Source: Herpetosiphon aurantiacus DSM 785
GTDB taxonomy: Bacteria > Chloroflexota > Chloroflexia > Chloroflexales > Herpetosiphonaceae
Reading direction: 5' to 3'
DNA length: 64,000 nt
Assembly: GCA_000018565.1 (NCBI GenBank)
Contig: CP000875.1
Coordinates: 5,595,199-5,659,198 of the forward strand
Below the pieces are notes generated by a model, which saw only the letters and a program-made list of their open reading frames with translations, searched no databases and was not told where the DNA came from. Positions 4,581-51,323 of the stretch are shown here, in pieces; within the stretch, counting starts at the first letter, position 1, and each line of letters begins with the position of its first letter. The translations under genes were made by a program, and so were the position numbers.

Positions 4581-6251
4581 CTAGCGATAAGGCCGCAACG
4601 CGCCGTAATAGTGATTGAGCCAGTAGCTGCTATAGATGCTGACTGCACCAACCCCCGAAGCGGGAGTCATCGCATTGACCATCACACCACCGCCAACGTA
4701 GATGCCTACGTGGGTGATGCCCGGGCCAGCAGTGCCAGCATAGAACAGCAAATCGCCTGGTTGCAAGTTGCTCATGCTTCCGATGAAGGTGCCATAAGCG
4801 CTGCTATATTGGCCAGCGGCACTGTGGGGCAAGCTGACCCCAACTTGGCGATACAAATACTTGGTCAAGCCGCTGCAATCGAAGCCGCTGCTTGGGCTTT
4901 CGCCGCCCCAGCGATAGTTGTAGCCAACATAGGCCCAAGCCATCGAAGCAACGTCGCCGCTAGCAGTACCACCACCGCCGCCACCGCCACCAGCAGGTTG
5001 GCTAGGAGTGCTCTTTTTGGGGGCAGCTGGAGCAACTGGTAATGAGGGCACATTGGTTGTGAATGGTACACGGCGGAACACAAAGTTGCTGACATCAACT
5101 AAATCTTGTGAGATCCAGCCTTTGGTACCTTTGGCGGTTTGAACCTTGACCCATTCTTTGTAACGAGCTAATAAGGTTAATTCAGCGCCTTTGCTCAGTT
5201 TGCCCAATGAATCGAATTTGGTGCTTGGGCCAGAGCGCAAGTTGATGCCTTCATCAGTTGCCCAACCGACCAAATCGGGGTTAGCTGATGGAATCGATTC
5301 AGCTTCGGCGATCCGTTCGGCAACGCCAGCTTCAAGATTCAAGAATTCGGCTGAAACCCAACCCACATTACCTTCACCAGTTTCAATTTGATACCAGCCT
5401 TGATAGCGGGCCAACAATGAAACTTGGCTATCAATTCCCAGCTTTTTCATGCTGATGTAGTCAGTACCAGGGCCATCACGCAAGTTCAAATTATCTTGGG
5501 TGATCTTGCCCACTTTGGCTGGTGGTGGGGTTGGAATATTTTGGGCATCAGGCAAAGCATCGATCACCGATTGCTCTAAATCAAGCAAATCAGCGGCGAG
5601 CCAACCTTCTTGGCCGCCTTCGGTGCGCACTTGCACCCAATCGGCGTGGCGAGCCACAACGGTTACCTTGGTGCCTGGTTCTAATTTATCGAGACGATCG
5701 AATTCAGTGCTTGGGCCATTGCGCAAGTTGGCAATATCGGCGCTCACTACTGATTCGGGATAGGTCGGGTTGTTATTAACTGGGCGGCCTACTGGAATCA
5801 CCAACGAATCATCAAAATCGGGGCTGCTAATTGGCCCATCGCCAACACCTGGGTCAGGCGTAGCTTCTGAATCATTGAGAGCAGTCAACGGAGCTGGTTC
5901 GTTGCGGTGGGTCATGGTCATCAAGCCGAGTGCTGGCCGAACTTGGCGTTCAGCAGTTGGCGATGCGCTGACCAAGAGTGCAGTATCTACCTGAGGCTTA
6001 GTGGCATCTTTGTTGACAACTAAACCAACTGGTAAGAGCGAAAGCACCATAAGATGAAGTAGGTAGCGCCGTGGAGCTTTGCGCAGGTACGATGGAACCG
6101 CACGAAGTGCAGAAACCGAACGGGCGTTAACGCGCTGGCGTAAACTGGTCGTTCGTAAAAGCGAATTTTCGTTGTTCACAGCCCGCTGCTGGAAGTCTTG
6201 CAGATCATGATCTTCTTGGATCAGATCATTCGAGGACTTAGCATCTTGCAT
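4581..6251 (-). CDS. SH3b-repeat NlpC/P60 cell-wall endopeptidase
   Basis: A 556-residue exported peptidoglycan hydrolase that would cut peptide stems. A basic N-terminal region precedes a hydrophobic segment at residues 63-79 that serves as a signal or anchor. Three bacterial SH3 domains follow at about residues 170-230, 247-310 and 328-390, each with an LR(N/D/S)GPST-like start. A Pro- and Gly-rich linker with nine consecutive Gly leads to the C-terminal NlpC/P60 domain. Its catalytic Cys is about residue 459 in GFDCSGL and the His is about 514 in GITHVGIYVG. A GGGAGG site lies upstream of the ATG. The gene stands alone behind a 450-base AT-rich region and ends at a strong terminator. Confidence 0.93.
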   Translation of the reverse strand: MQDAKSSNDLIQEDHDLQDFQQRAVNNENSLLRTTSLRQRVNARSVSALRAVPSYLRKAPRRYLLHLMVLSLLPVGLVVNKDATKPQVDTALLVSASPTAERQVRPALGLMTMTHRNEPAPLTALNDSEATPDPGVGDGPISSPDFDDSLVIPVGRPVNNNPTYPESVVSADIANLRNGPSTEFDRLDKLEPGTKVTVVARHADWVQVRTEGGQEGWLAADLLDLEQSVIDALPDAQNIPTPPPAKVGKITQDNLNLRDGPGTDYISMKKLGIDSQVSLLARYQGWYQIETGEGNVGWVSAEFLNLEAGVAERIAEAESIPSANPDLVGWATDEGINLRSGPSTKFDSLGKLSKGAELTLLARYKEWVKVQTAKGTKGWISQDLVDVSNFVFRRVPFTTNVPSLPVAPAAPKKSTPSQPAGGGGGGGGTASGDVASMAWAYVGYNYRWGGESPSSGFDCSGLTKYLYRQVGVSLPHSAAGQYSSAYGTFIGSMSNLQPGDLLFYAGTAGPGITHVGIYVGGGVMVNAMTPASGVGAVSIYSSYWLNHYYGALRPYR

Positions 6252-6705
6252 GCAGCTGTAACCTCCCTATTATCGAATGCGGCTTAATGATATCGCACCG
6301 ACAATTAAATAATTAACGTTTATGCATCGTGCAATGCCGAGAGCGAAGTTAACATATTTGTGCCATGTTTGCAAATCTCAGCTATTTTTCAGACTACTGG
6401 CTTAAGCTTTTCAGATATTTATCAGATAGTACTTTTAGGCCATAGTAAAGCCTTAAATCAGCGTTTTCATCGTCAAATCAGCACATATTTTCTTGAAAGT
6501 GGATGAGAAAACTCTAATCATTATGTGATGTTAGGCACAAAGTTGACCATAATTAAGCTAAAAATTTAAGCACTTTTTTACCATTTTTCAGATATTTATT
6601 AATTTTAATTAACTAAGAAATTAAGCTTTTTGGCAATGATTCAGGTTTAAAATGCGCTAATTTAAAGGATTTAGCGCATCTGAATCATCCAAATCTGATC
6701 AAACC
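6252..6705. other. AT-rich intergenic region with direct repeats
   Basis: About 450 bases, distinctly more AT-rich than the surroundings, upstream of the NlpC/P60 gene. It contains a perfect 15-base direct repeat, TTTTCAGATATTTAT, at 6408-6422 and 6585-6599, and a related TTTTTCAGA near 6384. I looked for the conserved segments of the c-di-AMP riboswitch that often precedes such hydrolases and did not see them. No open frame is convincing. Confidence 0.6.
6638..6686. terminator. long hairpin downstream of glycosyltransferase
   Basis: GATTCAG (6638-6644) pairs with CTGAATC (6680-6686), and ATGCGCTAA (6652-6660) pairs with TTAGCGCAT (6671-6679), with a 7-base bulge on one side. It lies just past the stop of the minus-strand glycosyltransferase gene. 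No clear U-run follows, so it may be a weak terminator or a 3' stabilising stem. Confidence 0.5.
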
Positions 6706-7857
6706 CTAGGCTTTCTCATAAACCTTAAGCATCTGGGCGGTAAAGTGTTGCCAATTAAATTGGCTGGCTCGTTGTAAACCACGTTGGCGATATTCGTTAT
6801 TTAATTCAGCATCATTCAACATGCGCAACATTGCCATCGCCCAAGCCTCGGTATCGTGTGGCGGCAGCAAAATACCAGCCTCGCCGACAATTTCGGGCAT
6901 GCTGCTGGTATTCGAAGAAATCACGGGCGTACCACAACTCATCGCTTCTAATGGGGGCAAGCCAAAACCTTCATAGGTCGAGGGCCAAACAAATGCACTG
7001 GCTCCAGCAAATAGCGCGGCGTTTTCAGCATTCGTGACGCGCCCAGTAAAAATAATATCAGCAGCCAAATCTTCATCAAGAATTGTGGTTTCTAAAGCAG
7101 GAAAAAATGGCGAATTAGCCTTAGGACGGCTGCCAGCAATCACTAATTTAATTGGTTGCTCAATTCGGCGACGCACCCGCCCAAATGCCCGCAGCAATGT
7201 CGTGAGATTTTTGCGCACATCAAAGCCGCCGATATAATAAAAATAAGGCTGATTAAGATTAAAACGTTGCAAGGTTTGGCTAATCTGTTCATCTGTCTGC
7301 GGTTGATAATCAGGTGCAACGCCTTCGTAAATTGTATGCACGTGTAATGCATTAATATTCAATACATCAATAATATCATCGCGGGTATGGTCGGAGACTG
7401 CCACCAATTGACGACAACGGCGCACAGCACTCGTTGCCAGGGCAGTATAGGCTCGCATCGCCAACGAGCCACGGTATTCAGGCAAAATTAATGGAATAAT
7501 GTCGTGGACTGTTACCACAGTCGGCACTAATTGGCGACGTGGCGGCGCATAATAGGGCACATGCAACAGATCAACGGCTAAGCGCAAGGCGGCGCGGGGC
7601 AACTCAATTTGCTCATACCAAAGCTTGGCCAATTTAGGGTGTAGTTTATCAAACGGCGTTGGCACACGATCAACCGCAATATGCGGAATTTGAGGAATTT
7701 CGGCTTGGGTATAGGCTGGCAAAAACAACACATATTCGTGCTGAGGACCAACATGCGGCAAATGTTCAATTAAATGATGTAAATACTGACCGCTGCCCAC
7801 CATTGGTTCAGCCCAAAATGTGCCACTAATCCCAATCCGCACGATAGCTACTCCCAT
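6706..7857 (-). CDS. GT4-family glycosyltransferase
   Basis: A 383-residue GT-B fold glycosyltransferase, likely transferring a sugar from a nucleotide-sugar donor onto a glycan or lipid acceptor at the cytoplasmic membrane face. The N-terminal half has GSGQYLHHLIEHLP and the VTVHDIIPLI segment of the acceptor domain. The C-terminal half has YYIGGFDVRKNL, VIAGSR and the donor-binding EGFGLPPLEAMSCGTPV (the E-x7-E motif), typical of the mannosyltransferase-like branch. I placed the start at the ATG at 7857. An in-frame TTG 12 bases upstream is also possible. No other glycan genes adjoin it, so the substrate is unknown. Confidence 0.9.
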   Translation of the reverse strand: MGVAIVRIGISGTFWAEPMVGSGQYLHHLIEHLPHVGPQHEYVLFLPAYTQAEIPQIPHIAVDRVPTPFDKLHPKLAKLWYEQIELPRAALRLAVDLLHVPYYAPPRRQLVPTVVTVHDIIPLILPEYRGSLAMRAYTALATSAVRRCRQLVAVSDHTRDDIIDVLNINALHVHTIYEGVAPDYQPQTDEQISQTLQRFNLNQPYFYYIGGFDVRKNLTTLLRAFGRVRRRIEQPIKLVIAGSRPKANSPFFPALETTILDEDLAADIIFTGRVTNAENAALFAGASAFVWPSTYEGFGLPPLEAMSCGTPVISSNTSSMPEIVGEAGILLPPHDTEAWAMAMLRMLNDAELNNEYRQRGLQRASQFNWQHFTAQMLKVYEKA

Positions 7858-7906
7858 TACTGTGCCCAATCAGGCTGCATTATACCAGTGCTCAAGCCAG
7901 CCACGG

Positions 7907-8221
7907 TTATTGGCCAAACATCGCCGCCACCCACGTAATTAAAAAGATCGAGAAAATCGTGGGAATTGCACTAATTAATGGAAAGACGCTTTGGATAATT
8001 TGAAAACTTGCGCGTTTGCCTGTACTAATTTTGCTCAGATCATTCGGATGAATTTCCCATGTCTTGCCTTTGAAACGTTCGCTGCGCCGAATTTCAACCT
8101 GCCAGCGCTGGCTCAACCATTGACCAAAAAACCAATCTTCGGTTAAACGCACGCCGCGCAACCACCACAACACATTGCCTGCCAAAATCAAGGCAGTTAA
8201 AAATAATTGCATCCCGCTCAT
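7907..8221 (-). CDS. small two-helix membrane protein
   Basis: A 104-residue protein of unknown function. It has hydrophobic helices near the N-terminus (LFLTALILAGNVLWWL) and at the C-terminus (VFPLISAIPTIFSIFLITWV), with a basic middle region between them. I chose the ATG at 8221 because AGGAG sits 7 bases before it. An ATG six bases earlier would be only one base from that site. It lies between the SDR gene terminator and the glycosyltransferase on the same strand. No family is recognised. Confidence 0.65.
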   Translation of the reverse strand: MSGMQLFLTALILAGNVLWWLRGVRLTEDWFFGQWLSQRWQVEIRRSERFKGKTWEIHPNDLSKISTGKRASFQIIQSVFPLISAIPTIFSIFLITWVAAMFGQ

Positions 8222-21365: not shown

Positions 21366-21801
21366 AATGCTACGTCCTTGTAAGCTTGATGAAGAACAGC
21401 GAATCGATTAATTTAACCACGAAGGGCACGAAGAGCACGAAGGGAGTATGGCTCTAGGCTATGAGGCTATCGGAATATTTTCTAGAATTTCAAACGATCC
21501 AATAGCCTCACCTGCTCTGCGCCTCTGCGTTAAAACCGAATCTTCTTTTGGTTTCTACACTCCAATCCCCGACCCCCAACAACCGATCCCCAAATTCCTA
21601 TGTTCTATGTTCTTTGCTCTATGATCTTCAGTCTCTCGTATACAAATAGTCCGTACACAAACTAACTATACGCACTGCGTTATGCTTTGTCAAGATTGCG
21701 ATTTTTGCTACGAAGTCGCTGCTTGTGAGAGTGGGGAAAGCTTGGTATGATTAGGCAATCCTCACTTGGTCATGGCATCCGCCGGAGAAATGCGTGCTAC
21801 C
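21366..21801. other. repeat-rich gap between marR and the Wadjet operon
   Basis: The divergent gap contains a family B copy (ACCACGAAGGGCACGAAG, 21416-21433), a CCCCGACCCCCAACAACC-like stretch, a family D run (TTCTATGTTCTTTGCTC, near 21602) and a TATGAT box at 21745-21750. No additional gene is seen. Confidence 0.65.
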
Positions 21802-23202
21802 ATGAGTTTGTTCGAGACCGTTCCTACCACCCTTTTTCGCCCATTAGCTAGCCCTGGCGCTGCAATTTACACCCAGGTTTTGCTAGCGCTGTTTGCTGCC
21901 ACCAAGCAACAATCGCAACCACTCAGCCGCGAACGGGCATTAAGCCTCGTCGAGCAACAATTAGAGTTACCCAATGCCGAGGCTCTTACCAGCGATGCTC
22001 ACGAGGAAGAATCAGAGCTTGAGCAAAATAACCATGCTTCGGCGATTTTGCGTTCGCTGCGGGCTTGGGGCTGGCTGCGCTTCGAGCAACAAAGCGATTA
22101 TTCCTCGGCGATCATTTTGCCCGATTATGCGTTTCGGCTGTTGCAACTCTTTGAAGACCTTGCAACCAAACAGCGCCAACATTTGCGCGGCATGATTTGT
22201 GGCATTCACGATGTGCTCGAAAAAGCCTGTACTGGCGATGCACCCCACGATCGGCTCTCGAATGCCTATGAACAAACACTTTTTCTAACGCAGGCGTTGA
22301 AAGAATTGCAACACAACATTGGCTTGCATATTCAAAAAGTGCTGCAAACCCTCAAAACCAAAGATGTGTTGGAGCATGTGTTTGGTACCTATCGCAAAGA
22401 TATTGTCGATCAAGCCTATCATCAACTGCGTACATCCGACCATCTTTCGCGCTATCGGCCTGCGATTTTGCAGTTTTTGCAGAAAATAGAGCGCACCAAT
22501 TTGTTGGAGTTATCGGCACAACATTTGGTTAGTCGCGGCGAGGCTGCTAGTTTTGAAGTGGCGTATAACCGATTAACTGACCAAATTGATACAATTCGCA
22601 GCCATTTCGACCAACTTGATCAATTAATTGGCGTGATCGATTTGCGCCATAGCCAATTTGTCGATTCGGCGGTGCGCAATATTGAATTATTTTTGAGTGC
22701 GAGCACCAGCACCAGCGGCCAACTCCACCGCATTTTGAGCCAAATTTTGCCCAATCAACAAGCCTTCGAGCAAGCCAGCCCTGAAATTAGCGAAATGCTC
22801 AGCATCTACGAATTTCAATTGACCGATCAGCAATCACTGAGTGCTCCAACTCGCGCTGCCGTGCCATTTGAAATTCAAGCTGAGAGCTATGCTCCGCTCA
22901 GCGAGGCCGAAATTGCCCAAGCACAGGCCGACACCTTGCGCCAATTGCGCCGCTCAATCAGCCGTGATCGCGTGCGGCGTTATGCTTTGCAATTGTTGGG
23001 CGATGCCGAACAACGCCGTGGCTCGGAGATTGAACTTGAAGGTGTTGACGATTTATCATTAATTATCTATTTGCGTTCGTATGGCGATGGATCGTTGGGC
23101 TACACGGTTGAGTCAATCGACGATGGCGTTTGGGTCGAGCGCGATGGTGTGGGCTTTCGCGATTTCTTGGTGCGGCGGGTTTCAACGGAGCAACCAGCAT
23201 GA
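21802..23202 (+). CDS. jetA: Wadjet subunit JetA (kleisin-like)
   Basis: First gene of a Wadjet anti-plasmid system. The 466-residue helical protein begins MSLFETVPTTLFRPL, matching the start of the DUF5716 JetA family known from type III systems. JetA is the kleisin-like bridge of the SMC-type JetABC complex. Long predicted helices run through the middle, with a beta-rich acidic C-terminus (YLRSYGDGSLGYTVE). I chose the ATG at 21802 from the family N-terminus. In-frame ATGs at 21772 and 21790 are possible, and the GGAGA at 21784 does not clearly decide. Its stop overlaps the jetB start (ATGA). Confidence 0.88.
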   Translation: MSLFETVPTTLFRPLASPGAAIYTQVLLALFAATKQQSQPLSRERALSLVEQQLELPNAEALTSDAHEEESELEQNNHASAILRSLRAWGWLRFEQQSDYSSAIILPDYAFRLLQLFEDLATKQRQHLRGMICGIHDVLEKACTGDAPHDRLSNAYEQTLFLTQALKELQHNIGLHIQKVLQTLKTKDVLEHVFGTYRKDIVDQAYHQLRTSDHLSRYRPAILQFLQKIERTNLLELSAQHLVSRGEAASFEVAYNRLTDQIDTIRSHFDQLDQLIGVIDLRHSQFVDSAVRNIELFLSASTSTSGQLHRILSQILPNQQAFEQASPEISEMLSIYEFQLTDQQSLSAPTRAAVPFEIQAESYAPLSEAEIAQAQADTLRQLRRSISRDRVRRYALQLLGDAEQRRGSEIELEGVDDLSLIIYLRSYGDGSLGYTVESIDDGVWVERDGVGFRDFLVRRVSTEQPA

Positions 23203-23831
23203 GCTTAGTCAATTTTGCTGAAGAATATAGCCAACTTTCATCAACCGAGCAGCAATTATTTGCCGATAGTGTGCGGCGTTTGCTCAGCGATGGCCTGATT
23301 TGGCGCGAAGATGAGCAGGATCGGCGGATTTTTGCTTGGTTAGTGCGACGGATCGATTTGGTACGCGATTATTTGGCGGTCGCTGGCTGGGAATTGCATT
23401 ACGCCGAAAATTTACATATTTTCCATGTATTTCATCGTGATGGCAGCCATCGCCGCCGCTTCAACCGTGAAACCACCTTATGGCTGTTATTGCTGCGTTT
23501 AATCTACGCTGAACAATATGAGTCGCTCAATCCAAGCTTGACGCGCTATCCAACCACCACCGTGAGCGATGTCTATAGCCGTTATGGAGAGTTTTTTCCT
23601 GGCCAAACGATTCGCAAAAAAGGCGCGTTCGATGAGGCTTTACGCCTATTCAATGGGCTAAAACTCGTGCGCGCTCCCAATAGCAAAGCACTGCGTGCCA
23701 ACGACCCCGATGCGGTGATCGAATTATTGCCAGCGCTTGAGGTAATAGTGCCAGCTAGTGGCATCGCCGCCTTGGCCGAACGCCTAGCCGAATATCAACG
23801 CCCCAACAGTGCTGACGAGGAGCAAGAATGA
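23199..23831 (+). CDS. jetB: Wadjet subunit JetB (DUF4194-like)
   Basis: A 210-residue protein with the winged-helix, KITE-like character of JetB/MukE-type subunits. It has an N-terminal helical part, ending in the WRED and RRIFAWLVRRIDLVRDYL stretch, and the RFNRETTLWLLLLRLIYAEQ segment typical of DUF4194. The subunit would bind JetA and the SMC heads. Both ends overlap neighbours by ATGA (start at 23199, stop shared with the jetC start), indicating tight translational coupling and fixed stoichiometry. Confidence 0.88.
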   Translation: MSLVNFAEEYSQLSSTEQQLFADSVRRLLSDGLIWREDEQDRRIFAWLVRRIDLVRDYLAVAGWELHYAENLHIFHVFHRDGSHRRRFNRETTLWLLLLRLIYAEQYESLNPSLTRYPTTTVSDVYSRYGEFFPGQTIRKKGAFDEALRLFNGLKLVRAPNSKALRANDPDAVIELLPALEVIVPASGIAALAERLAEYQRPNSADEEQE

Positions 23832-26800
23832 TCAAGCTTAGTCGCATTTTTCTGTATCATTGGCATCGCTTCGATTGGCATGTGTTGGATGTGCAGGATA
23901 GTTTGTATTTGGCGGGCCACAACGGTTCAGGCAAATCGTCGATTCTTGATGCCTTGCAATTGGTGCTGGTGGCCGATTTGGGTCGCGTGCGTTTCAACAG
24001 CGCGGCCCAAGATCGCTCGCAACGCTCGTTGGATAGCTATGTGCGCGGCAAAATTGGCGAGCAACATTGGCTGCGGCCTGGCGACACGATTGGTTATGTG
24101 GTGCTGGAGTGGACTGAAGATCTGAAGCATCAAGCCTTTGTTAGCGGGGTTTGCTTGGAAGCTCGTGCCGCGACCCAAAGCGTTGAAAAAACCTTTTTTA
24201 TCTTTGATGGCCACTTAAATCCTGATGTATTTATTGAGCAAGGCAAACCACGCACCCGCCGCGAAATCAAAGCGATGGCGCGTAATCGCTCAACTGCCGA
24301 AAGTTTCGATCAAACTGGCGAATATCAAGCGGCGTTGCTCAATCGGTTGGGCGGCTTGAATCAACGCTTTTTCGATTTATTTCTGCGTGCCTTGACCTTC
24401 CAGCCAATTCGTAATATTCGTGAGTTTGTTGAGCAATGGCTGCTGGAGCCAAATTCGTTGGATGTTCACACCTTGCAAAATGTGGTTGAACGCTTACGCG
24501 ATTTGGAGCGAAAAGCTAAAGATGTTGAAGAACAATTAAAAAGCCTCGGTGCTATTATCAAAACCCAAGAAGAAGCCAAGCGCTTGCGTGGCCTGCATGG
24601 GAAATTTGAGATTCTGGCGGCTCACTATAGCGTGGCGGCAATTCAGCAACAAATTAATCAACAGCAACAACGATTAATCGATACTCGCCGCGATTACGAA
24701 TTGAATCAGACTGATTTGGAACAACAACTTGGCTTACAGCAAAATGCCCAAGCTGCCTTAGTTGAAGCCCAAGTTCAATTAAGCCAATCTGATGTTGTGC
24801 GGCGTAAAAACCAACTTGCCGCTGAAATTCAGCAATTGCAGCAACACATTCAAAAAATTAACCAACGTTGGCGACAACTACAAGCCAAATTAATCCAAAT
24901 TGCGGCATTATTGAATAAATTACAGCCAATTGCTGAGCAAGATTTGGTTAATTTATTGCAGCAGCCTGAGCACATTCCCCAATCACAGCAAATTGTGCCT
25001 TTATTACAACAACAGAGCACGGCGGCTGGCTCTGCTTTGAAATTGCAACTCCAGGCGATGACCAGAACCGACGATAAAATCTCGCGCTTATTTGAACAAG
25101 AAAGCCGCCTAAAACAAGAAATTACCCAGCTTGAGCAATCGAATCGCCAAAATCATTATCCCCAAAATGTGGAAAATGTGCGTAAGTACTTAAAATCAGC
25201 ATTAAATATTGAACTCTTTTTGCTTTGTGAGCTGTTAGAAATTCCTGATGAACATTGGCAAAATGCGGTTGAGGCAATGCTTGGTCAACGCCGTTTCAAT
25301 ATTATTGTCGAACCTAAATATTATAGCCAAGCCCTTGATTTGCTTGATCAGTTACGCGAAAAAGAGCGGATCTATGATGTTGGTTTGGTTGATTTACAAC
25401 AAGCTAGTGCAGAAGCTCGCCCAGCACGACCATTATCATTGGCGACCAAAGTCAAAGCCAAAACTGGCTTGATTGATAAATATATTGCGGCAATTTTAGG
25501 TGATATTATTACTTGTCAGCATGTGCAAGATTTGCGTCAACATCGCCGTGCGATTACCGCTGAAGTGATGGTTTATCAAGAATGGACAGCGCGTTCGATT
25601 GATCCACGGAAATTTCAGCCTTGGTTTATCGGTGAACGCGCCCAACGCTCGCAAATTGAAAGCCGCCGCCAGCAATTAACCGAAATCCAAGCCGAATTGG
25701 CGATATTACGCCCAGAACAACAACGCCAGCGCCAATATTATGATCAATTGGAAAAATTACAACAACTTTTATTAGGCTTAGATTCGTATTTCGAGGAAGA
25801 ACTTGATTCAAGCGAATTACAAACGACACTTGCTGAATTGCAACGCGAACACGATAGCATTGATACTAGCGGCGTGGCGGCACTTGAGGCCGAAGTTAAA
25901 CGTTTACACATAATTCATGAAGAATATGCCTTGAATATTCGCCGTTTAGAGCGGATTATTGGCACACTGAATAATCAAATTACTCAGATTGAACAACAAC
26001 TTCAAGAAAACCAACATCAATTGTTGAATGCTCAAAGCCTGTTTGAGCATACGCAGCAACGCTATCCCGACCAAATTGACGATGCACTCAACGATTTTCA
26101 GCGCGAGAACAATGAGCAAGCGCAATTTAGCCGTTTGCAAGAAACCGCCGAGCAACAAGGTCGTGGCTATAATACCCGTTTTAACAATACCCAAGAACAA
26201 TTACGCGAACAAGTTATACTCTATAATCGCGATTTTCGAGCGCGTGAACTAGCCAATATCGAGCAAACGAGCTTCCAAGAGAAACGCGCTGAGCTTGAGG
26301 CTACTGATTTACCGCATTTTGTACAGAAAATTGCTGAAGCCAAACATGAAACTGAAACCGAGCTACGCGAACATGTTCTGCATAAATTGCGTGAAAATAT
26401 TGGTCGCGCCAAAGCAGAGCTTGATCGGATTAATGATGCTTTGCAAGGCTTAGATTTCAATGGCCAGCGTTATCATTTTCGCTATGAAATTGCCGATTCA
26501 TTGCGTGATTTTTATCAATTGATTGAGCAATCAGCCAATGTTACTAGCGAGATGATTCAGGATAGTGAATTTTATCAGCAGCACAAAGCCACGTTTGATC
26601 GTTTCTTCCAATTGTTAATTCAGCCTGGCCTAACCGACCAAGAAAAGCTTGAGCAGGCTCAAATTACCGATTATCGGCGCTACTTGAGCTATGATATTGA
26701 TGTGATTGAGCGTGATGGTACTCGTTCACGCTTGAGCAAAATTATGGGTCAAACATCTGGCGGCGAAACTCAAACTCCGTTTTATGTGACGATTGCGGCC

Positions 26801-27109
26801 TCGTTTGTGCAGCTTTATAAAATTAATGAACGTAGCAAACGCTCAACCATTCGGATTGTGGCCTTCGATGAAGCCTTTTCCAAAATGGATCAAGATCGGA
26901 TTGGCTCGACGCTTGATCTATTTCACCATTTTGGTTTACAAATTATCACGGCCACGCCGATTGAGCGTTGCGAATATTTAGTGCCCAAAATGTGTACAAC
27001 CTTGGTTTTGACTGGCTTGAAAGATCGCCAGCAGCGGGTTTTGGTCGAGCCATATCGTAATTATGCAGCTCGTCTAGAGGCGCTGAATGCTGAATCTGAA
27101 CAAAACTAG
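23828..27109 (+). CDS. jetC: Wadjet SMC-like ATPase JetC
   Basis: A 1,093-residue SMC/MukB-like ATPase, the motor of the Wadjet complex that extrudes DNA loops and senses small circular DNA. Walker A GHNGSGKS is at residues 30-37. The signature motif is in GQTSGGETQTPFY and Walker B in RIVAFDEAFSKMD near residue 1015. Two long Gln-rich coiled-coil regions (about 220-470 and 640-900) flank a hinge-like globular part containing RRFNIIVEPKYYSQALDLL. The start overlaps jetB by ATGA, and the last 23 bases overlap the jetD start. Confidence 0.95.
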   Translation: MIKLSRIFLYHWHRFDWHVLDVQDSLYLAGHNGSGKSSILDALQLVLVADLGRVRFNSAAQDRSQRSLDSYVRGKIGEQHWLRPGDTIGYVVLEWTEDLKHQAFVSGVCLEARAATQSVEKTFFIFDGHLNPDVFIEQGKPRTRREIKAMARNRSTAESFDQTGEYQAALLNRLGGLNQRFFDLFLRALTFQPIRNIREFVEQWLLEPNSLDVHTLQNVVERLRDLERKAKDVEEQLKSLGAIIKTQEEAKRLRGLHGKFEILAAHYSVAAIQQQINQQQQRLIDTRRDYELNQTDLEQQLGLQQNAQAALVEAQVQLSQSDVVRRKNQLAAEIQQLQQHIQKINQRWRQLQAKLIQIAALLNKLQPIAEQDLVNLLQQPEHIPQSQQIVPLLQQQSTAAGSALKLQLQAMTRTDDKISRLFEQESRLKQEITQLEQSNRQNHYPQNVENVRKYLKSALNIELFLLCELLEIPDEHWQNAVEAMLGQRRFNIIVEPKYYSQALDLLDQLREKERIYDVGLVDLQQASAEARPARPLSLATKVKAKTGLIDKYIAAILGDIITCQHVQDLRQHRRAITAEVMVYQEWTARSIDPRKFQPWFIGERAQRSQIESRRQQLTEIQAELAILRPEQQRQRQYYDQLEKLQQLLLGLDSYFEEELDSSELQTTLAELQREHDSIDTSGVAALEAEVKRLHIIHEEYALNIRRLERIIGTLNNQITQIEQQLQENQHQLLNAQSLFEHTQQRYPDQIDDALNDFQRENNEQAQFSRLQETAEQQGRGYNTRFNNTQEQLREQVILYNRDFRARELANIEQTSFQEKRAELEATDLPHFVQKIAEAKHETETELREHVLHKLRENIGRAKAELDRINDALQGLDFNGQRYHFRYEIADSLRDFYQLIEQSANVTSEMIQDSEFYQQHKATFDRFFQLLIQPGLTDQEKLEQAQITDYRRYLSYDIDVIERDGTRSRLSKIMGQTSGGETQTPFYVTIAASFVQLYKINERSKRSTIRIVAFDEAFSKMDQDRIGSTLDLFHHFGLQIITATPIERCEYLVPKMCTTLVLTGLKDRQQRVLVEPYRNYAARLEALNAESEQN

Positions 27110-28292
27110 CAATGCAATTTTGCAGCAATTACTTGATCAACACGAGCAGCCAGAGCGTCAGCGAGTCAATCGGGTGCAGATTAAAGCGGCCAAATTTTCG
27201 CGTTATTTTGATGATAAACAGATTGACGAACGCCAACAAACCAATAACTACTTGGTTGAGCTAGCAAAAAATCAGATAATCAAGTTGTATTGGCGTAAAT
27301 GGGAAGAAGGCAATTGGCTTGAAGCGGTTGATTTGCTTGATGCGGCGGCGCTATATCGTTTGCTGAAACGCCAACCCTTGGCCGAGCAACAGCAGGCCTT
27401 GCGTACATTATTGGCTGAATATGTGCCAGTTCAAGGCTGGCTGGCTGATTGGCTGGCGTGGCTCGAACAGCAATTAATCCAACAGCGCTCGATCCAACCG
27501 CTTGATTTAACCGACCCTGCTTGGAATCGCGATGTACTACGGGCGATTTATGGCCTGACTCAGCTAGAAACGCCAATTTTAGAGCGTTTATTTAGCGTAG
27601 GTTGGCTGGGTCAGAGCAAACGATTTAGCGAGCTAGAAGGCGCAGTTTTGCGGGTTTTGCGCCAATTTGCCCCGCAAGCCAAGCAATTTGGCGACAATGA
27701 TCGGGCTTTGCTGCAAGCCTTTAATCTCGAAAAAGTGCCAGAATATGTGCTACTTGCTGGCGATTTACAACTGGAATTGCATGGGAATCGGCTGGAATTA
27801 GGCGCGTTTCGGCCAAGTTTGGGCTTGCCTAGCTCGATGTTGCGTCAAGCTCAGGTGCTGGATTCAGCCTGTACTGAAATTATTACGATTGAAAACTTGA
27901 CCAGCTTCCACAGTATGCTTGCCCGCCAACCACAGGCGTTGTTGATCTATACCGGTGGCTTTGCTAGCCCCAGCCTCTGCCAATTTTTGAGCAAACTAGC
28001 CATGGCTTTGCCCAATTTAACGTGGTATCACTGGGGCGATTACGATGTAGGTGGTTTGCGAATTTTGGCGCATCTACGCCAGCATGTTGCCAAGATTCGC
28101 CTGTGGCAGCCTGATCCAGCGATTTTTCAGCGGGCTGGCAAAGCTACCCAAAGCTTGAATTCTAAAGAACGCCAAAGCCTCACTGAACTCCAACAACACC
28201 CATTGCTTTATGATTGCCAAGCCTTGATCGGGGCAATGCTGGAACAGAATATCAAACTTGAGCAAGAGCAACTTGATCTTTTGGGGCACTAA
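27087..28292 (+). CDS. jetD: Wadjet nuclease JetD (DUF3322/DUF2220, Toprim)
   Basis: A 401-residue subunit that in studied Wadjet systems cleaves plasmid DNA. The N-terminal part corresponds to the DNA-binding arm. The C-terminal Toprim-like domain shows ITIENLTSFH (acidic residue near 266) and YHWGDYDVGGLRIL (near 316), the topoVI-A-like metal-binding motif. The ATG has an AGAGG site 6 bases upstream, inside the jetC 3' end. It is the last gene of the four-gene operon. All motifs appear intact, so the system is probably functional. Confidence 0.92.
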   Translation: MLNLNKTSNAILQQLLDQHEQPERQRVNRVQIKAAKFSRYFDDKQIDERQQTNNYLVELAKNQIIKLYWRKWEEGNWLEAVDLLDAAALYRLLKRQPLAEQQQALRTLLAEYVPVQGWLADWLAWLEQQLIQQRSIQPLDLTDPAWNRDVLRAIYGLTQLETPILERLFSVGWLGQSKRFSELEGAVLRVLRQFAPQAKQFGDNDRALLQAFNLEKVPEYVLLAGDLQLELHGNRLELGAFRPSLGLPSSMLRQAQVLDSACTEIITIENLTSFHSMLARQPQALLIYTGGFASPSLCQFLSKLAMALPNLTWYHWGDYDVGGLRILAHLRQHVAKIRLWQPDPAIFQRAGKATQSLNSKERQSLTELQQHPLLYDCQALIGAMLEQNIKLEQEQLDLLGH

Positions 28293-28296
28293 AAAT

Positions 28297-28329
28297 CCTT
28301 TGCCCAGCGAGGGGGACGCTGGGCAAAGG
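28297..28329 (-). terminator. strong intrinsic terminator, minus-strand polarity
   Basis: Perfect 13-base arms CCTTTGCCCAGCG (28297-28309) and CGCTGGGCAAAGG (28317-28329) with a 7-base loop. The T-run (ATTTTTAG) follows only on the minus strand, so it ends a transcript coming from the right rather than jetD. Confidence 0.8.
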
Positions 28330-28510
28330 TGCGGCGGAAGGAGGTGTCTACGCCGTTGCTGGCTTAGCAGGAGGCGCGGTGGATTTGTTGCGCCCGTCCA
28401 TGGGGTGCCAAGGCGCGGCAACAGCCAACGAGCAAGGCCAGCGCATCCGGCGACGTTTCAGCCAATATCAACACGATAGCAATCGTGAAAAGGAGGGCAT
28501 TGGCCTCGTA
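28297..28510 (-). ncRNA. candidate structured RNA of unknown class
   Basis: The minus strand has a TATAAC box (complement of 28517-28522) and a TTGGTA box (complement of 28542-28547) 19 bases apart. These are followed by a GC-rich stretch with hairpins, including GGCCAAT pairing with ATTGGCT around an inner CACGAT-TGCT-ATCGTG stem, and then a strong terminator. The mutY stop lies 640 bases upstream, which makes an independent short transcript plausible. I could not match it to 6S, SRP, tmRNA or RNase P patterns. A decayed coding sequence is the alternative. Confidence 0.3.
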
Positions 28511-28963
28511 CCGGTGGTTATAACAGGCTAGCTTCGTAAACTACCAAAATTGGTATCAATCGCGATCAAAGCATCAAGCCTCAGAGCGAACCGAATGAGT
28601 AATGAACCAACTTCAGGTTTGCGAACCAGTTGAAGACATGGCGAATACTCTTGTTCAGGCATTGCGACGGTACGCTGTTCGAGCTTTTCTGGTTATTCAG
28701 GGCAGCAACGGCCTAGCATTGACTACTTTGCTGAATAAACTCAGATGCGATGCTTTTAATGTGCTTGCCTTCGTAATGAAGGAATTTGCTGAAGCTAGTT
28801 GGCGAATTCATCATCGTTCGTTGAGAAGAATTCCTCAAACGATTGTGTCCAGCAGTGATGATGGTTCACTTGGCCTCGTTTGTTTATGGGTTTAGAATAC
28901 AGGTATTTACCCAGCAGCAACGAAATAGTTTCGCAACGTCTCGTAGCGAGTCCTTCACCTTGG

Positions 28964-44372: not shown

Positions 44373-47300
44373 TTAGTTCTTGCTGACCATTGGTAAGTAG
44401 AGCTTACGGGTTGGGTCAACATTCTCAGTCACGTTGATAGTGACTGGAATTTGAACATTTGGTCGGGTTGTGTCGTTGGTTTGGATACACAGGTTGACTG
44501 TGTGGAGACCAGCGGCCAAGCCATTGGTGTTGAATTCAAGTGCCACATTGGCTGAGCCATCGGCTGCAATCGTACCGCTATTTGGTACTGCGCGAACCCA
44601 TGGAGCAGCATCAGCAACACATGATGCACCGCCACCAATATCGAGTGAAACATCGTCGAGGAAGAAGTTGGTGTTACCACTGCCATCAACAAACGATTCA
44701 AACAACAAGGTATGGTTGGTGGTATCGGCCAAAACGGCTGCGCTGATTGGAACTTCGACCAACGTGTAGGTTGGGAAGTCGGCAACTTCTGCGTTGGTAA
44801 CCGTGAAGACCGTAGTACCGTCGATCTTAACCTTGAGATAGTCGCTATCAACACCGCTTTGTTCGTTCATAAACAACCAGAACGATAAGGTACCTGAGGC
44901 ATTGCCAGCAGCGGTAAAGGTTTGCGAGATCGTGCCCAACTCATCTGGTGGGCTTTGTGATGGGGTCAGACCACCAAACCAAGCGTACCAAGTTCCAGTG
45001 TGTGGAACGTCGGCGGTGCCAGTTGAACATCCGGTGGTACAGAGCACAACCCCGAAGTTGGTTGAGGTTTGGCTCCAGTTTGGATTCGAACTATCGCCAG
45101 CATTGGTTTCCTCGAAGCTGCCATCTTGAACAACTTCATCGGCTGGAACAGTTTGCTTGCTACCAGCAGAGCGTAAGTTGGCTGGAACTGGCTTGCGGGT
45201 TGGTGCTGCTTCGCCACTTGGGGCTTGGCGACCACTTGCAGCCAATTCAGCGATTGTCCACGTCAAGGCCGCTGCACCGTTGTTATCCAAGGTGAGGGTT
45301 TGGGTGGTAATGCTGTTGATGGCAACCGTTTCGCTAATTGGAGTGGTATCAACATCCAAACATGGCGCATTCAAGCGCAGTTGACCATTTTGGGTCACTG
45401 TGCCAGCGGTAGGAACCGTCACGTTGTAGATTTGGGTGACATAGCCAGCCTTGGCAACGGTAACCGTGTAGCTACCAGCAGCCAAACTATAGCTATATGT
45501 CCCCGAACCACTGGTGGTCAAGACAGTTGCTGGCGTGGTGTTGATCGTCACGGTTGCGCCACTTAATGGAGCAGGTGAGACATCACATGCAGCTAAGCCT
45601 TGAATCGTACCACTGATCGTACCGAAGTTCGGTGGAGCAGTAACCGTCAAAGTAACAGGGATAGTTACCACTGGTTGAGGAGCGTTGTGGTTCAAGACCA
45701 AGTTACCGGTATAAACCCCAGCTTGGGTCAGACCGTTGGTCGAGAAGCTCACATTGACGACTTGGGTGCTGACTGGCGTACCAGCCAAACCAGTAATCGT
45801 GTTTGGCGTTTCAGTCAACCATGAAATGGCATCACAGGTAGCGCCAACACACAAGGCCATTTCGCTGCGCAAGCGAGCTTGGTTGAAGCTGAATTGAGCA
45901 GCTTGAGCCGTGCTTGCTCCACGCACACCAACGGTTGCACTCAAACCATTGTTGTACAACGGATCGCCGTAATCGAGATCTTTATATTGGTAGATCATGC
46001 CACCTTGTTCGTTGATTACAACTTGGAAGGTTGCATTACCAATACCGTTATAGTGCGGGCGATTTTCCCACTGAACGATCAATGAGCGGTTTGGCGCAGT
46101 ACCAACAACTTTCCAGTAGGTTGCCCCTGATTCATCATCAACATCATCCCAGAATGGCGAGATAACATTGTTGGTTGCGCCAGTTAGCAAGGATTCGTTA
46201 GTTGCGGCTACATCACCAGTGGTTGCACCGACCAAGACAACCCCATTGTTAGCAACCCGCAAGTTACGGCTGCTGGTGTTGAAGATGGTTACAGTGAATG
46301 GGCTAGTAATGTTGGCTTCAGCATCATCGGTTAAGTTCAAGTTCGTCCCATCGTTGGCTTCGAGCCAGCTATAGGGAACTTCCGAGATGGTATAGCCAGC
46401 TTGGCTGATTGCGCTGCGGCTTTGCTCACTAATGGTTGCATTGAGCGGGGCAGCACCCTTGCTGGTGACAACCAAGGTTTGGTTAACCGGAGCAGCGCCC
46501 AATTGGAGCGAAGCGCTCAATGAGCCTGGGCTAACCGTGACACAAGGCTTATTCAAGCGTAAGGTGAAGTTTTGGGTAACTTCAGCACCATCAGCAACTG
46601 TGACGCTTTGCGATTGACCAAGGTGGTCAACGGCGCTAGCGGCAACAGTATAGGTGCCACCTTGAGGCACGAAGAAGGCATATTCACCATTGGCATTGGT
46701 GGTAACTGTTGCAGTCATCCCGCTGGTATAGGTGATCAAAATTGTAGCGCCAGCAGCTGGAGCTGGAACAGTGTCACAGACCCCTGATGAGGTAACCGTA
46801 CCACTAATTCGTGCTTGAGTTGCGGCTGGGTTGACCACCATCGTCACTGGAATATTGAAGGTTTGGCTAATCACTGAGGAGTAGCCAAGGTTCAGGCTGC
46901 CAGTGTAGGTGCCAGGTTGGGTAATCACACCGGGATTCCAGCCAATTGCTACGTTGGTGCTATCACCACCAGCAATTACGCCAGTCGCAGGAGCTTCCTG
47001 CAACCAGGCAATGCTATCGCCACTACCAACAATTGCTTGCAACACACGCTCAAGCACGGTGCGCTCGATCGCTTCGCCACTGGCACCAGTGCCCAAGTTA
47101 ATGAAGTCGGTTGCGAGGTAGACAGCTTTGTAGCCATTACGTTGGATGAAACTACCGCCAACTGCGTTATTGCCATAGCGGAAGATTACCGTCGATGAGC
47201 TACCTGGAGTATAGAAGTCAGGGTATGCATCCACTGAGGCAGCATTTACGCCAGCCATGAAATCGAAGCCAGTCAAGGCCCGATTCGCAGCACCTGGATC

Positions 47301-50300
47301 ATCACCACCATAGGTTGAGTCAAGCATGGTTCGGTAGAACGTGCCTGCATTGGTGAAGAAACCAAGGTCGTTGTCAGCGATAAACAGCTTACCACCTGCG
47401 TTGAGGTATTCAGTAAGTTTGGTTTCGCTGGCATTATTGGCGGTTGCGTTAGTTGAACCAAGGAAGAGTACTGCATCAAAAGTTTGCAAATTGGCCAAGC
47501 TACGGGCTTCGAATGCAATGTTATCGATTGATTCAAAGGTATAGCCAAGCGCGGTCAAAGCCGTAGTTGCAGCTGTTGCCGAGGTTGCTGAGTTGCGTTG
47601 AACCACCAAGACGTTGCCACCAGCGCGGTTGACCGCTGGGGTAAAGCCAGTCGCACCATTTTCGCGAATGGTGTAGGTGAATGGCTGAGTGCCATTATTG
47701 GTTAATTCTAAGCCAACCGTATCGGTGAATGGCGCATCACCAAAGGTAAAGGTGCGGGTCAAGCTGGCTGGGGTATAACCAAAAGCTGGTGTAATTTCCA
47801 GATCTTGGGTTGTCGTAACCCCATTGCTAATCGTCAAGCTGGCGCTATCAGCAGCGAAACCAATCTTTGAAGCGGTCAGGGTATGACTGCCTGGCTCCAA
47901 GCGAATGGCAAAGCTACCGTCAGCTTTGGTCTTGACGTATTGGTTGCTGATGGCGACCGTTGCATCGCCAACTGGTGCACCGTTAGCGCTGTTGGTCACA
48001 ATCCCTGCGACCGCGCCAGCAGCCAAGGTAAAGTCTTGGGTCGCCGTGCCTGCATCAACCACCGTTACCGATTGTGATTGGGTGGCGTATTTTGGTGCAC
48101 TGACCGTTACCAAGGTTGAGCCAACATTGGCTACTGGAATGGTGTATTGACCAGCAGCATTGGTTGTGGTGCTATAGCCAATGACCGAAACATTTGCTCC
48201 CACAATTGGGCGGCTGGGGGTAAAGGCATCACGTACCGTCCCTGTAATTGAGCCGTAGCTCAATACAAAGTTTTGGGTCGTGGTGACATTTTCGGTAATC
48301 GATACGCTTGGAACAGTTTGGAAAGCACCTTGCAAGCTAGCGGTTACCGCATAGGTACCAACTGGTACGATCATGCTGTAGTTACCACTGGCGTTGGTCA
48401 AAGCGCTTGAGCCACCGCTGGTGCGAACCGTTGCGCCAACAACTGGGTTGTTGTTGCTTTGGGCAACGCGGCCAGTCAAGGTACCGGTTGGGCCAACCGA
48501 GCCGTTGTAGACATACAAGGCAAAGTCTTGGTCGGTGGTATCAGCATTGCCTGGGATGGCATCGCCAGCGATGTTGCGGGCAATGACTTTGACTTGGATC
48601 GAGCCACTTGTGCCTGCTGGCAAGTACACACCTTCAATGTTGTTCTTGTTATCAGCAGTGCCGCCAGTGGTTGAAAGTGCGCCGTTGAAGACGTTACCTT
48701 TGTAGGTTTGGCCACCAACCGTCACTTCGAGATCAAGGTCGTTGACATAGCTGTTGCCAGTGGTGCTGCCAACTGCGTCAGTCCAAGCCAAGGTAATCCG
48801 AATTGGTTTGGCTGAATCGGCAATCTGACCAACTTGGGTAAATTCTTCACCCGTTGCGCCGAAGGTGCGGGTTTGGTCAACCACGATCCGTGGGGTGCTG
48901 TCCAAGGCCGGAGCCAAGTTTACATCGCCCCAGCCTTGGTTATTTGATGGCAAGGTGCCGCCAGTCCCATTCCCGTTGAGGTAGCGTGTTGAGGCCAACA
49001 TATAGGCTTTCAACATTGCTGGGCTTGGAGCAACCCCACCGCCGAAGCTGGTGCGATATTTGGTGTAGAGCAATGAAGCCGAGCCTGCAACTGCTGGGGT
49101 TGAGTGGCTCGTACCACTCGACCAGCTATAGAGGGTTTGACCATTGGGGTAGTGAGTGCCACTGCTTGGCCCACAAAGGCCAGTCCCATCAAAGGTGGCG
49201 ATTTGTGAAGCTGGCCCCATCACGTGCGTCCCGGGAGCCATGATGTCAGGTTTTACCCGTGCATCATCGGTTGGACCACGGCTGGAGAAACTGGCAATAT
49301 CATCAGCACTATCAGCATTGCCTTCGTTACAGCCGTCGAGCACGCCTTCGTCGCGCACGTTTTCGGTTGCACCTACGGTAATAACGTTTTTGGCTGTACC
49401 AGGTGAGCCAACTGTGTTCGTACCTGAACCAGCGTTACCAGCGGCAATGATGTGAGTCATTTCTTGGTTGCCAGCAGTGGTGCTGCTTGCATCGCGGGTT
49501 CCTTGGTCGAAGGCTTGTGATGAAGCGGTATAGGCACCACCACTGTTTGAACCCCAACTGTTGGACGAGATGGCAGCGCCATGGCTGTAGGCCATTGCAA
49601 TAATTCCAATGTAGTTGCTACCGCCACCACAATTGGTCAGATCAAAGCTCCCAGCATTGTTGAAGATCTTGGTGCTGGCAATTCGGCTGAATGGCGAAAT
49701 GCCTAAGCCAACGCGATAGCCGCCAGCAATCCCTGAGCTAGCACCGTCAACGTGGGGCGAGCCAGTCAGGTTGTTGTAGCTACCAACGATCCCAATATTC
49801 AGGTTACCGTGGCCTGCCTGACCATTACCAGTGGCATCGGCAGTACAGTTACCAACAGCTGTAATCCGTGAAGTACCAGGCCGAACCCCATTGACATAGA
49901 AGTCAGGATGCAATGGTGAGGTTGTCCCATTATCCAGACCATCATCGACAACATCGACAATTGGATATTGGTTGGGGTCGGTTGGCACGCCTTGGCTTTG
50001 CAACCAGCTTAAGTAGCCTGGGCCGTTCGGCACCACTTTGCCACCAGCGGTGGTTACGTTACCAGCAATAATTTGGCCTTGGCGCTCATCCATTTTTTGA
50101 GGAGCTTCCCACGCTTCAATGTTGTAGACATTGGCGCGGCGAGCAATTGGAGCCAAAGCGGCTTCGCTGACTTGCACCGAAATTGTAGTGAAATTGAGCA
50201 CCTGCCATGGGGTCGCGTACACTTGGGCGCTGGCATCAAGCACTTCGCGCACATCACGTTCAACCGTAGCACTGTTGTAGAACTGAATCGTAACATCGAC

Positions 50301-50921
50301 CAGCCCCTTCGCATCAGGGTTGCTGGCTTTTTGGCGGAACTCAGGAGCTAAGCGATATTCGGGGTGGTAGGCACCAGCCCATTGAATCGCCCCATTGCTC
50401 TTGCTGAGTGCATCAAGTTTGGCCACAGTTTGGCCATTTGCCCAAACGAGGTAAGCGTTGTTGGGCATATATATGACGCGTTCCGCGCCAGCTTTGGTTA
50501 GTTCATCCAACCAAGCATCCTTGAGCGGCCCCGCAAATTGCACCAACCACAATTGTTGGTCGGCAGTTGGGCTTTGGCTCAGGCTTGGTTGCGGCGTGGG
50601 AACGCTCTTTAAAGGATTGAAGCTGATTCCCCGTAAGCCAATCGTATCCAAATCGGCGGCTTGTGCACCAGCCAATTGACTAAGACTGCTGGTGTTGTTA
50701 TTGGCAACTTGCCAGACTGAAAAAGAACCATAATCGGCAATCAATGTGCCATTCGTGCGGACAAATTTGTTGGCTGGGCTGTTTGGTTCAACGAGGAACT
50801 TGGTCGTCGCAGTCGGAGCACGCATTACTTCGGCACGGGCTGGTTGCGCCGCACCCTGAAGTCCCAATGAGAGCGTCATTGCAATGAGGGCTGCTTGCCG
50901 AATGAAGGGGAATTTGGCCAT
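44373..50921 (-). CDS. giant secreted S8 (subtilisin) protease, multidomain
   Basis: A 2,182-residue secreted protease. The signal peptide (FIRQAALIAMTLSLGLQGAAQPARA) and a prodomain of about 270 residues precede an S8 catalytic domain. Asp is near 322 in VDVVDDG, His near 369 in GHGNLNIG, and Ser near 603 in GTSHSTPAVAG. A jelly-roll domain like that of KP-43 proteases follows (660-810). Then come carboxypeptidase-regulatory-like repeats (about 812, 890, 967, 1368 and 1764), a Rossmann-like LFLGSTN/GGKLFIADNDLGFF domain (1104-1270), BACON-like and beta domains, and a MAM-like domain with DGSFEETN (1930-2094). It ends LYLPMVSKN. The start is the ATG with GGAGG upstream. Likely extracellular protein degradation; paralogue of the next gene. 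Confidence 0.93.
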   Translation of the reverse strand: MAKFPFIRQAALIAMTLSLGLQGAAQPARAEVMRAPTATTKFLVEPNSPANKFVRTNGTLIADYGSFSVWQVANNNTSSLSQLAGAQAADLDTIGLRGISFNPLKSVPTPQPSLSQSPTADQQLWLVQFAGPLKDAWLDELTKAGAERVIYMPNNAYLVWANGQTVAKLDALSKSNGAIQWAGAYHPEYRLAPEFRQKASNPDAKGLVDVTIQFYNSATVERDVREVLDASAQVYATPWQVLNFTTISVQVSEAALAPIARRANVYNIEAWEAPQKMDERQGQIIAGNVTTAGGKVVPNGPGYLSWLQSQGVPTDPNQYPIVDVVDDGLDNGTTSPLHPDFYVNGVRPGTSRITAVGNCTADATGNGQAGHGNLNIGIVGSYNNLTGSPHVDGASSGIAGGYRVGLGISPFSRIASTKIFNNAGSFDLTNCGGGSNYIGIIAMAYSHGAAISSNSWGSNSGGAYTASSQAFDQGTRDASSTTAGNQEMTHIIAAGNAGSGTNTVGSPGTAKNVITVGATENVRDEGVLDGCNEGNADSADDIASFSSRGPTDDARVKPDIMAPGTHVMGPASQIATFDGTGLCGPSSGTHYPNGQTLYSWSSGTSHSTPAVAGSASLLYTKYRTSFGGGVAPSPAMLKAYMLASTRYLNGNGTGGTLPSNNQGWGDVNLAPALDSTPRIVVDQTRTFGATGEEFTQVGQIADSAKPIRITLAWTDAVGSTTGNSYVNDLDLEVTVGGQTYKGNVFNGALSTTGGTADNKNNIEGVYLPAGTSGSIQVKVIARNIAGDAIPGNADTTDQDFALYVYNGSVGPTGTLTGRVAQSNNNPVVGATVRTSGGSSALTNASGNYSMIVPVGTYAVTASLQGAFQTVPSVSITENVTTTQNFVLSYGSITGTVRDAFTPSRPIVGANVSVIGYSTTTNAAGQYTIPVANVGSTLVTVSAPKYATQSQSVTVVDAGTATQDFTLAAGAVAGIVTNSANGAPVGDATVAISNQYVKTKADGSFAIRLEPGSHTLTASKIGFAADSASLTISNGVTTTQDLEITPAFGYTPASLTRTFTFGDAPFTDTVGLELTNNGTQPFTYTIRENGATGFTPAVNRAGGNVLVVQRNSATSATAATTALTALGYTFESIDNIAFEARSLANLQTFDAVLFLGSTNATANNASETKLTEYLNAGGKLFIADNDLGFFTNAGTFYRTMLDSTYGGDDPGAANRALTGFDFMAGVNAASVDAYPDFYTPGSSSTVIFRYGNNAVGGSFIQRNGYKAVYLATDFINLGTGASGEAIERTVLERVLQAIVGSGDSIAWLQEAPATGVIAGGDSTNVAIGWNPGVITQPGTYTGSLNLGYSSVISQTFNIPVTMVVNPAATQARISGTVTSSGVCDTVPAPAAGATILITYTSGMTATVTTNANGEYAFFVPQGGTYTVAASAVDHLGQSQSVTVADGAEVTQNFTLRLNKPCVTVSPGSLSASLQLGAAPVNQTLVVTSKGAAPLNATISEQSRSAISQAGYTISEVPYSWLEANDGTNLNLTDDAEANITSPFTVTIFNTSSRNLRVANNGVVLVGATTGDVAATNESLLTGATNNVISPFWDDVDDESGATYWKVVGTAPNRSLIVQWENRPHYNGIGNATFQVVINEQGGMIYQYKDLDYGDPLYNNGLSATVGVRGASTAQAAQFSFNQARLRSEMALCVGATCDAISWLTETPNTITGLAGTPVSTQVVNVSFSTNGLTQAGVYTGNLVLNHNAPQPVVTIPVTLTVTAPPNFGTISGTIQGLAACDVSPAPLSGATVTINTTPATVLTTSGSGTYSYSLAAGSYTVTVAKAGYVTQIYNVTVPTAGTVTQNGQLRLNAPCLDVDTTPISETVAINSITTQTLTLDNNGAAALTWTIAELAASGRQAPSGEAAPTRKPVPANLRSAGSKQTVPADEVVQDGSFEETNAGDSSNPNWSQTSTNFGVVLCTTGCSTGTADVPHTGTWYAWFGGLTPSQSPPDELGTISQTFTAAGNASGTLSFWLFMNEQSGVDSDYLKVKIDGTTVFTVTNAEVADFPTYTLVEVPISAAVLADTTNHTLLFESFVDGSGNTNFFLDDVSLDIGGGASCVADAAPWVRAVPNSGTIAADGSANVALEFNTNGLAAGLHTVNLCIQTNDTTRPNVQIPVTINVTENVDPTRKLYLPMVSKN

Positions 50922-51323
50922 GCCATCCTCCACACACAAGTGTGTATGTAATACCAGTCAATTCCAAGAGGTACAATCGTGAGCATGTGGCTAAAATATC
51001 AAAATAAAAATATTAAGCTGTATCCCTCCTTTCTACAAAAGGGGATTGTCGCAGGTTGGTGAGAGTAATAGCTTAAAAAAGCCCGTTCACTGGCTATGGG
51101 CGTATTCTAACGCTTCAGTTTGAGGCGCTATGGGGCAACAATCTCTTATATCCATTATCCCGTTGGGGATGGGACTATTGTACTAGCAAGCATTTTTTTA
51201 TGCAAATTTAACCTAATTGCCCATTCTAATCAGCAAAATCTAATATTTGCTTAACGAAAACCCCCTGTGATTAGAGGATCACAGGGGGTTTTGCTTGATG
51301 AGTTTTAAAATCAGGCTATGTAC
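50922..51323. other. intergenic gap between the two giant proteases
   Basis: About 400 bases upstream of the first protease and downstream of the second. It holds the terminator at 51257-51292. The remainder is AT-rich and presumably contains the promoter of the downstream gene, but no box is clear. No gene is seen. Confidence 0.65.
51257..51292 (-). terminator. intrinsic terminator of second giant protease gene
   Basis: Perfect 15-base arms AAAACCCCCTGTGAT (51257-51271) and ATCACAGGGGGTTTT (51278-51292). The built-in T-run at the 3' side makes it a strong terminator in either direction. Confidence 0.9.

Follow-up and report, generated by a model that had tools for sequence, protein, structure and literature searches.

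The four overlapping genes at this locus of Herpetosiphon aurantiacus DSM 785 raise the question of whether they constitute a complete Wadjet system that could act on foreign plasmids, and to which type such a system would belong. The window referred to below is the whole stretch of 64,000 nucleotides that was analysed (contig CP000875.1, positions 5,595,199 to 5,659,198), and coordinates are those of the window unless another locus is named.

Layout of the jet operon

The jet operon consists of four genes at 21802-28292, all on the plus strand, the open reading frames of which are real and uninterrupted. The preliminary description of this DNA had given the gene positions together with overlaps of ATGA, ATGA and 23 bases, and both agree with the ORF coordinates, in that ATGA is common to jetA and jetB at 23199-23202 and to jetB and jetC at 23828-23831, and the last 23 bases of jetC (27087-27109) are also the first of jetD. 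The true start of jetA could lie four codons further 5' than listed here, at an in-frame ATG (21790).

21723-21751, plus strand: weak candidate jet promoter, TTGTGA-17-TATGAT, from a consensus scan only (9/12 matches)
21802-23202, plus strand: jetA, 466 aa, kleisin (MukF-like) subunit of the DUF5716/PF18982 branch
23199-23831, plus strand: jetB, 210 aa, KITE (MukE-like) subunit, DUF4194
23828-27109, plus strand: jetC, 1,093 aa, SMC ATPase motor with Walker A, signature, Walker B/D-loop and SMC hinge
27087-28292, plus strand: jetD, 401 aa, Toprim nuclease with E269, D318, D320, E392 and E394 conserved

The candidate jet promoter lies approximately 50 bases 5' of the jetA ATG, and its -10-like TATGAT is kept in two congeners (G002 and G004); the number of sites returned by the consensus scan was not above shuffle expectation. 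The jet operon and the MarR/FadJ side share this intergenic region, and a near-consensus promoter within it (TTGACA-17-TATAGT, 11/12 matches, 21665-21693) faces the latter.

Family identity of the four subunits

Searches with JetA-D profiles, proposed earlier as a check on the assignment, matched all four proteins to Wadjet models of subtype I. JetA was matched by PADLOC JetA1 (8.1e-87) and Pfam JetA PF18982 (4.7e-84), JetB by JetB1 (1.1e-65) and PF13835 (DUF4194, 7.9e-19), and JetD by JetD1 (1.2e-92, 309 bits) and PF09983 (JetD_C, 3.4e-24). The match of JetC to JetC1 reached 4.7e-302 (1,003 bits), accompanied by the Pfam domains PF13558 (SbcC Walker B), PF13555 (AAA_29) and PF06470 (SMC hinge), a weak Pfam match to the MukB N terminus and, in a sequence search, a match to the solved JetC of Pseudomonas aeruginosa PA14 (8dk1_C, 2.8e-12). 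A profile built from 10 JetD homologues retrieved three solved type I nucleases, namely PA14 JetD (7til), Corynebacterium glutamicum MksG (8b7f) and Escherichia coli JetD(E248A) (8q72). Neither phmmer nor family profiles gave a sequence match between JetA or JetB and the solved JetA and JetB proteins, and a comparison of JetA with a DUF3375 JetA by hhalign gave no informative result. A chance origin is excluded by the profile E-values, which range from 1e-65 to 5e-302, and by dN/dS values of 0.00-0.15 across congeners; the locus has the kleisin, KITE, SMC and Toprim genes of a four-gene Wadjet operon.

Assignment to type I

The best PADLOC models for all four proteins were those of type I (PDLC00442, PDLC00500, PDLC00519 and PDLC00533). 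The preliminary description, in which types II and III alone were weighed, had preferred type III on the ground that JetA resembles DUF5716, a preference that the profile scores overturned. PADLOC type I takes in two JetA branches, DUF5716 and DUF3375, the latter including the solved JetA proteins of PA14 and E. coli, and the scanned subunits of a Streptomyces DUF3375 operon and of a Cohnella DUF5716 operon were both placed in type I. Type II models reached at most 66 bits for JetC2, against 1,003 for JetC1, and at most 46 bits for JetD2, against 309 for JetD1.

A type III Wadjet is favoured by a weak match of JetD to the JetD3 models (24 and 19 bits, the best being PDLC00591 at 4.6e-6); the JetD1 score stands against it, and type III models were not among the PADLOC matches listed for JetA, JetB and JetC. 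Wadjet-II and Wadjet-III have been described as lacking a hinge channel and as mostly long-armed, unlike Wadjet-I (PMC12647877), and by this criterion the short length of JetC and its Pfam match to an SMC hinge (5.7e-6) would also fit type I. Type III, with profile scores far under those of type I, was therefore rejected as extremely improbable, and on the basis of PADLOC and PMC12647877 the operon is best called a type I Wadjet of the DUF5716 JetA branch.

Catalytic motifs and predicted structures

All three ATPase motifs are present in JetC, these being Walker A (GHNGSGKSS, residues 30-38), the signature (SGGE, 977-980) and Walker B with its DE (1014-1015), and all were conserved in an alignment of eight JetC proteins; GHNGSGKSS, SGGE and FDEAF do not vary among close relatives and are for the most part retained in distant proteins. 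The Toprim residues of JetD, comprising the glutamate E269, WGDxD (D318 and D320) and a terminal ExE (E392 and E394), are conserved among 11 JetD proteins, and the motifs of JetC and JetD alike are conserved across both JetA branches, the one exception being a divergent Variovorax JetD. The nuclease activity of C. glutamicum MksG is drastically impaired when E236 or D279 is mutated, and its conserved glutamates E349/E351 match the proposed nucleophiles in JetD (PMC10123090); judged by position and motif, MksG E236, D279 and E349/E351 probably correspond to JetD E269, D318/D320 and E392/E394, respectively. An N-terminal IFDR motif in JetB has been reported as a contact with JetD (PMC10586767). 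This motif is not present at the N terminus of the JetB encoded here, so the details of how it couples to JetD may differ.

The predicted structure of JetD (mean pLDDT 86.9) was matched by Foldseek to Topo VI-A, Spo11, MksG and JetD, and VIA-align gave Z values of 19.8 to Topo VI-A, 14.8 to MksG and 13.4 to PA14 JetD, in keeping with a Topo VI-A/MksG-like fold (Z 13-20). The JetA model was of low confidence (pLDDT 67.8), its best matches being MukF chains followed by Wadjet-II JetA (Z 9.9 to 9qe1_E); these are Z values at which helical bundles can match by arrangement alone, so that a MukF-like fold is suggestive only. The earlier account of a complete Wadjet operon with intact JetC motifs and an intact JetD Toprim motif is thus backed by PADLOC, Pfam, residue alignment and the JetD fold.

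Conservation within Herpetosiphon

The operon is present at the same site in four of five congeners, with MarR/FadJ on the left and MutY on the right, and in five Herpetosiphon genomes none of the four frames is interrupted. For every jet gene, dN/dS across the four congeners was 0.00-0.15, indicating strong purifying selection, with jetD the least constrained of the four. The remaining congener, G005, has a FadJ-MutY spacing of approximately 1.55 kb (contig C145), and at this locus (L029) approximately 11 bases lie between flanks matching window positions 21731 and 28288.

21732-28287: segment absent from congener G005, an empty site or deletion footprint spanning the whole operon

A tree of the flanks placed G005 with G002 and G004 (75% support; 56% for the pairing of G002 with G005), which makes deletion in G005, rather than gain by the others, the simplest reading.

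Genomic setting

The genome has three contigs with a total of 6,785,430 bases, and the window is part of the 6,346,587-base contig. The two remaining contigs sum to 438,843 bases, and we take them for two plasmids, one of roughly 340 kb and the other of roughly 99 kb. Escape from Wadjet is reported for plasmids larger than about 50-100 kb (PMC10586767). Coexistence of the operon with two replicons of the presumed sizes fits such escape, without amounting to a test of it. A JetD_C search found a single such gene in the genome, and no second Wadjet; the genome also encodes an SMC and ScpA of its own. A defence island was considered and rejected, as seven nearby proteins yielded two weak PADLOC matches with E above 1e-5 (a MarR regulator and a histidine kinase), and the operon is outside any recognisable island of this kind. 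In a limited search, no literature linking Herpetosiphon to Wadjet was found.

Between mutY and jetD, a region of approximately 670 bases (28297-28963, minus strand, that of mutY) is conserved in six Herpetosiphon genomes, at approximately 78% in distant Herpetosiphon, with reading frames that are not kept between species. It ends in a strong intrinsic terminator (a 13-pair stem, then a T run), was without a match in Rfam, and may represent either an extended 3' UTR of mutY or an RNA that is not annotated. Just before the terminator, at approximately 28335-28350 on the minus strand, the anti-Shine-Dalgarno-like sequence ACACCTCCTTCC is invariant in 6/6 species. Elsewhere in the window, two adjacent and very long ORFs of 2,188 and 2,206 aa occupy 44373-57944 on the minus strand.

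Relatives beyond the genus

Among 400 sampled Chloroflexota genomes, 22 gave a match to PF18982, which exceeded the Pfam cut-off in 19. Gene order was the same in Chloroflexales relatives, with identities of approximately 41-50% for JetA, JetC and JetD and 52-62% for JetB. In three relatives (L038, 9543-12526; L042, 6693-9290; L050, 5681-8276), jetA and jetD sequence is kept and jetB is missing together with most or all of jetC; at L038, JetC is reduced to its last 94 matched residues, and at L042 and L050 jetA is split into two matches. The motor may have been lost more than once, or the pattern may stem from assembly. In Candidatus Oscillochloris fontis (L043), inserts at 356-2158 and 5406-7986 separate jetB from jetC and jetC from jetD, with jetC and jetD remaining open; the first insert carries a nucleotidyltransferase-domain gene and, as judged by eye, an apparent TnpB/IS605-type gene. 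On a 352-kb conjugative plasmid of Vibrio nigripulchritudo (L052, 1714-6436), an IS3-family transposase gene splits jetC.

Proposed function and alternative explanations

We consider the locus to be a complete and probably functional type I Wadjet with a DUF5716-type JetA, at a probability of roughly 0.93. This reading draws on family membership, subtype, intact motifs, the JetD fold, purifying selection and the conserved chromosomal site, and we infer activity from characterised type I systems, on whose model the subunits would assemble into a complex, extrude loops, cleave DNA and restrict plasmids in the host (PMC10586767, PMC10123090, PMC12647877). JetA (kleisin), JetB (KITE) and JetC (SMC) would assemble as a dimer-of-dimers, an ATP-driven motor for DNA extrusion, and complete extrusion of a small circle would activate the JetD Toprim nuclease, by analogy with the systems of PMC10586767 and PMC12647877. 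Activated JetD would then make a sequence-independent double-strand cut, whilst linear replicons, very large ones and the chromosome itself would escape. That the Herpetosiphon jet operon restricts plasmids is, on this analogy, what we may fairly infer.

The complex could instead be a chromosome-organising condensin in which plasmid restriction is secondary or has been lost, as described for MksBEF, and the vertical conservation of the operon in a house-keeping neighbourhood, with no recognised defence island, would suit such a role. However, JetD is present with its catalytic residues intact and under purifying selection, G005 lives without the operon, and, given the dedicated SMC and ScpA, no role as chromosomal condensin has to be assigned to JetABC; we therefore regard this role as very improbable. 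Hardly conceivable is a decaying, inactive remnant, for whilst losses or truncations occur among relatives (G005, L038, L042 and L050), no frame is interrupted in any of five Herpetosiphon genomes, dN/dS is at most 0.15 and the catalytic motifs are conserved. For the preferred type I Wadjet, the JetB without IFDR and a JetA that is not alignable by sequence raise the further idea that the DUF5716 branch couples motor to nuclease unlike the solved DUF3375-branch complexes. This we judge unlikely; were it so, the substrate size limit or the activation geometry may differ.

An intact system, predicted to restrict plasmids, is hereby documented in Herpetosiphon (Chloroflexota). It points to a specific obstacle for genetic tools in this genus, in that small shuttle plasmids may be destroyed, and G005, which is without the operon, offers a natural comparison. 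Since sequence searches found no solved JetA or JetB for the DUF5716 branch, this branch is also a reasonable structural target.

Comparison with known systems

The JetA model is nearest in fold to MukF of the MukBEF condensin, to which the weak MukB N-terminal match of JetC also relates, though MukBEF has, to our knowledge, no JetD-type nuclease subunit. The SMC-kleisin-KITE-Toprim organisation is shared with type II Wadjet (Neobacillus vireti JetABC, 9qe0/9qe1, including the 9qe1_E chain matched by the JetA model); type II JetC models are however approximately 1,360 positions in length, and their scores here fall far short of those of type I. The DUF3375-branch operons of P. aeruginosa PA14 and E. 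coli GF4-3 are of the same PADLOC type, as is C. glutamicum MksBEFG, and the likeness extends to JetC (8dk1_C), to the JetD profile (7til, 8b7f and 8q72) and to the JetD fold (8b7f and 7til), whereas JetA belongs to the other type I JetA family and JetB is without the N-terminal IFDR. Also among the closest known systems are DUF5716-branch type I operons such as those of Cohnella herbarum (NZ_CP051681) and Rossellomorea sp. AcN35-11 (CP128836), which have the same genes in the same order, separated by small overlaps or gaps as here, and the same families, namely PF18982/DUF5716 JetA, DUF4194 JetB, SbcC-like JetC and JetD_C/DUF2220 JetD. Identity to the Cohnella proteins is approximately 26-28%, protein by protein, and the Herpetosiphon operon is chromosomal, whereas those of Cohnella and Rossellomorea are located on large plasmids. 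The Herpetosiphon operon is a sound, well conserved and ordinary member of the known type I Wadjet family.
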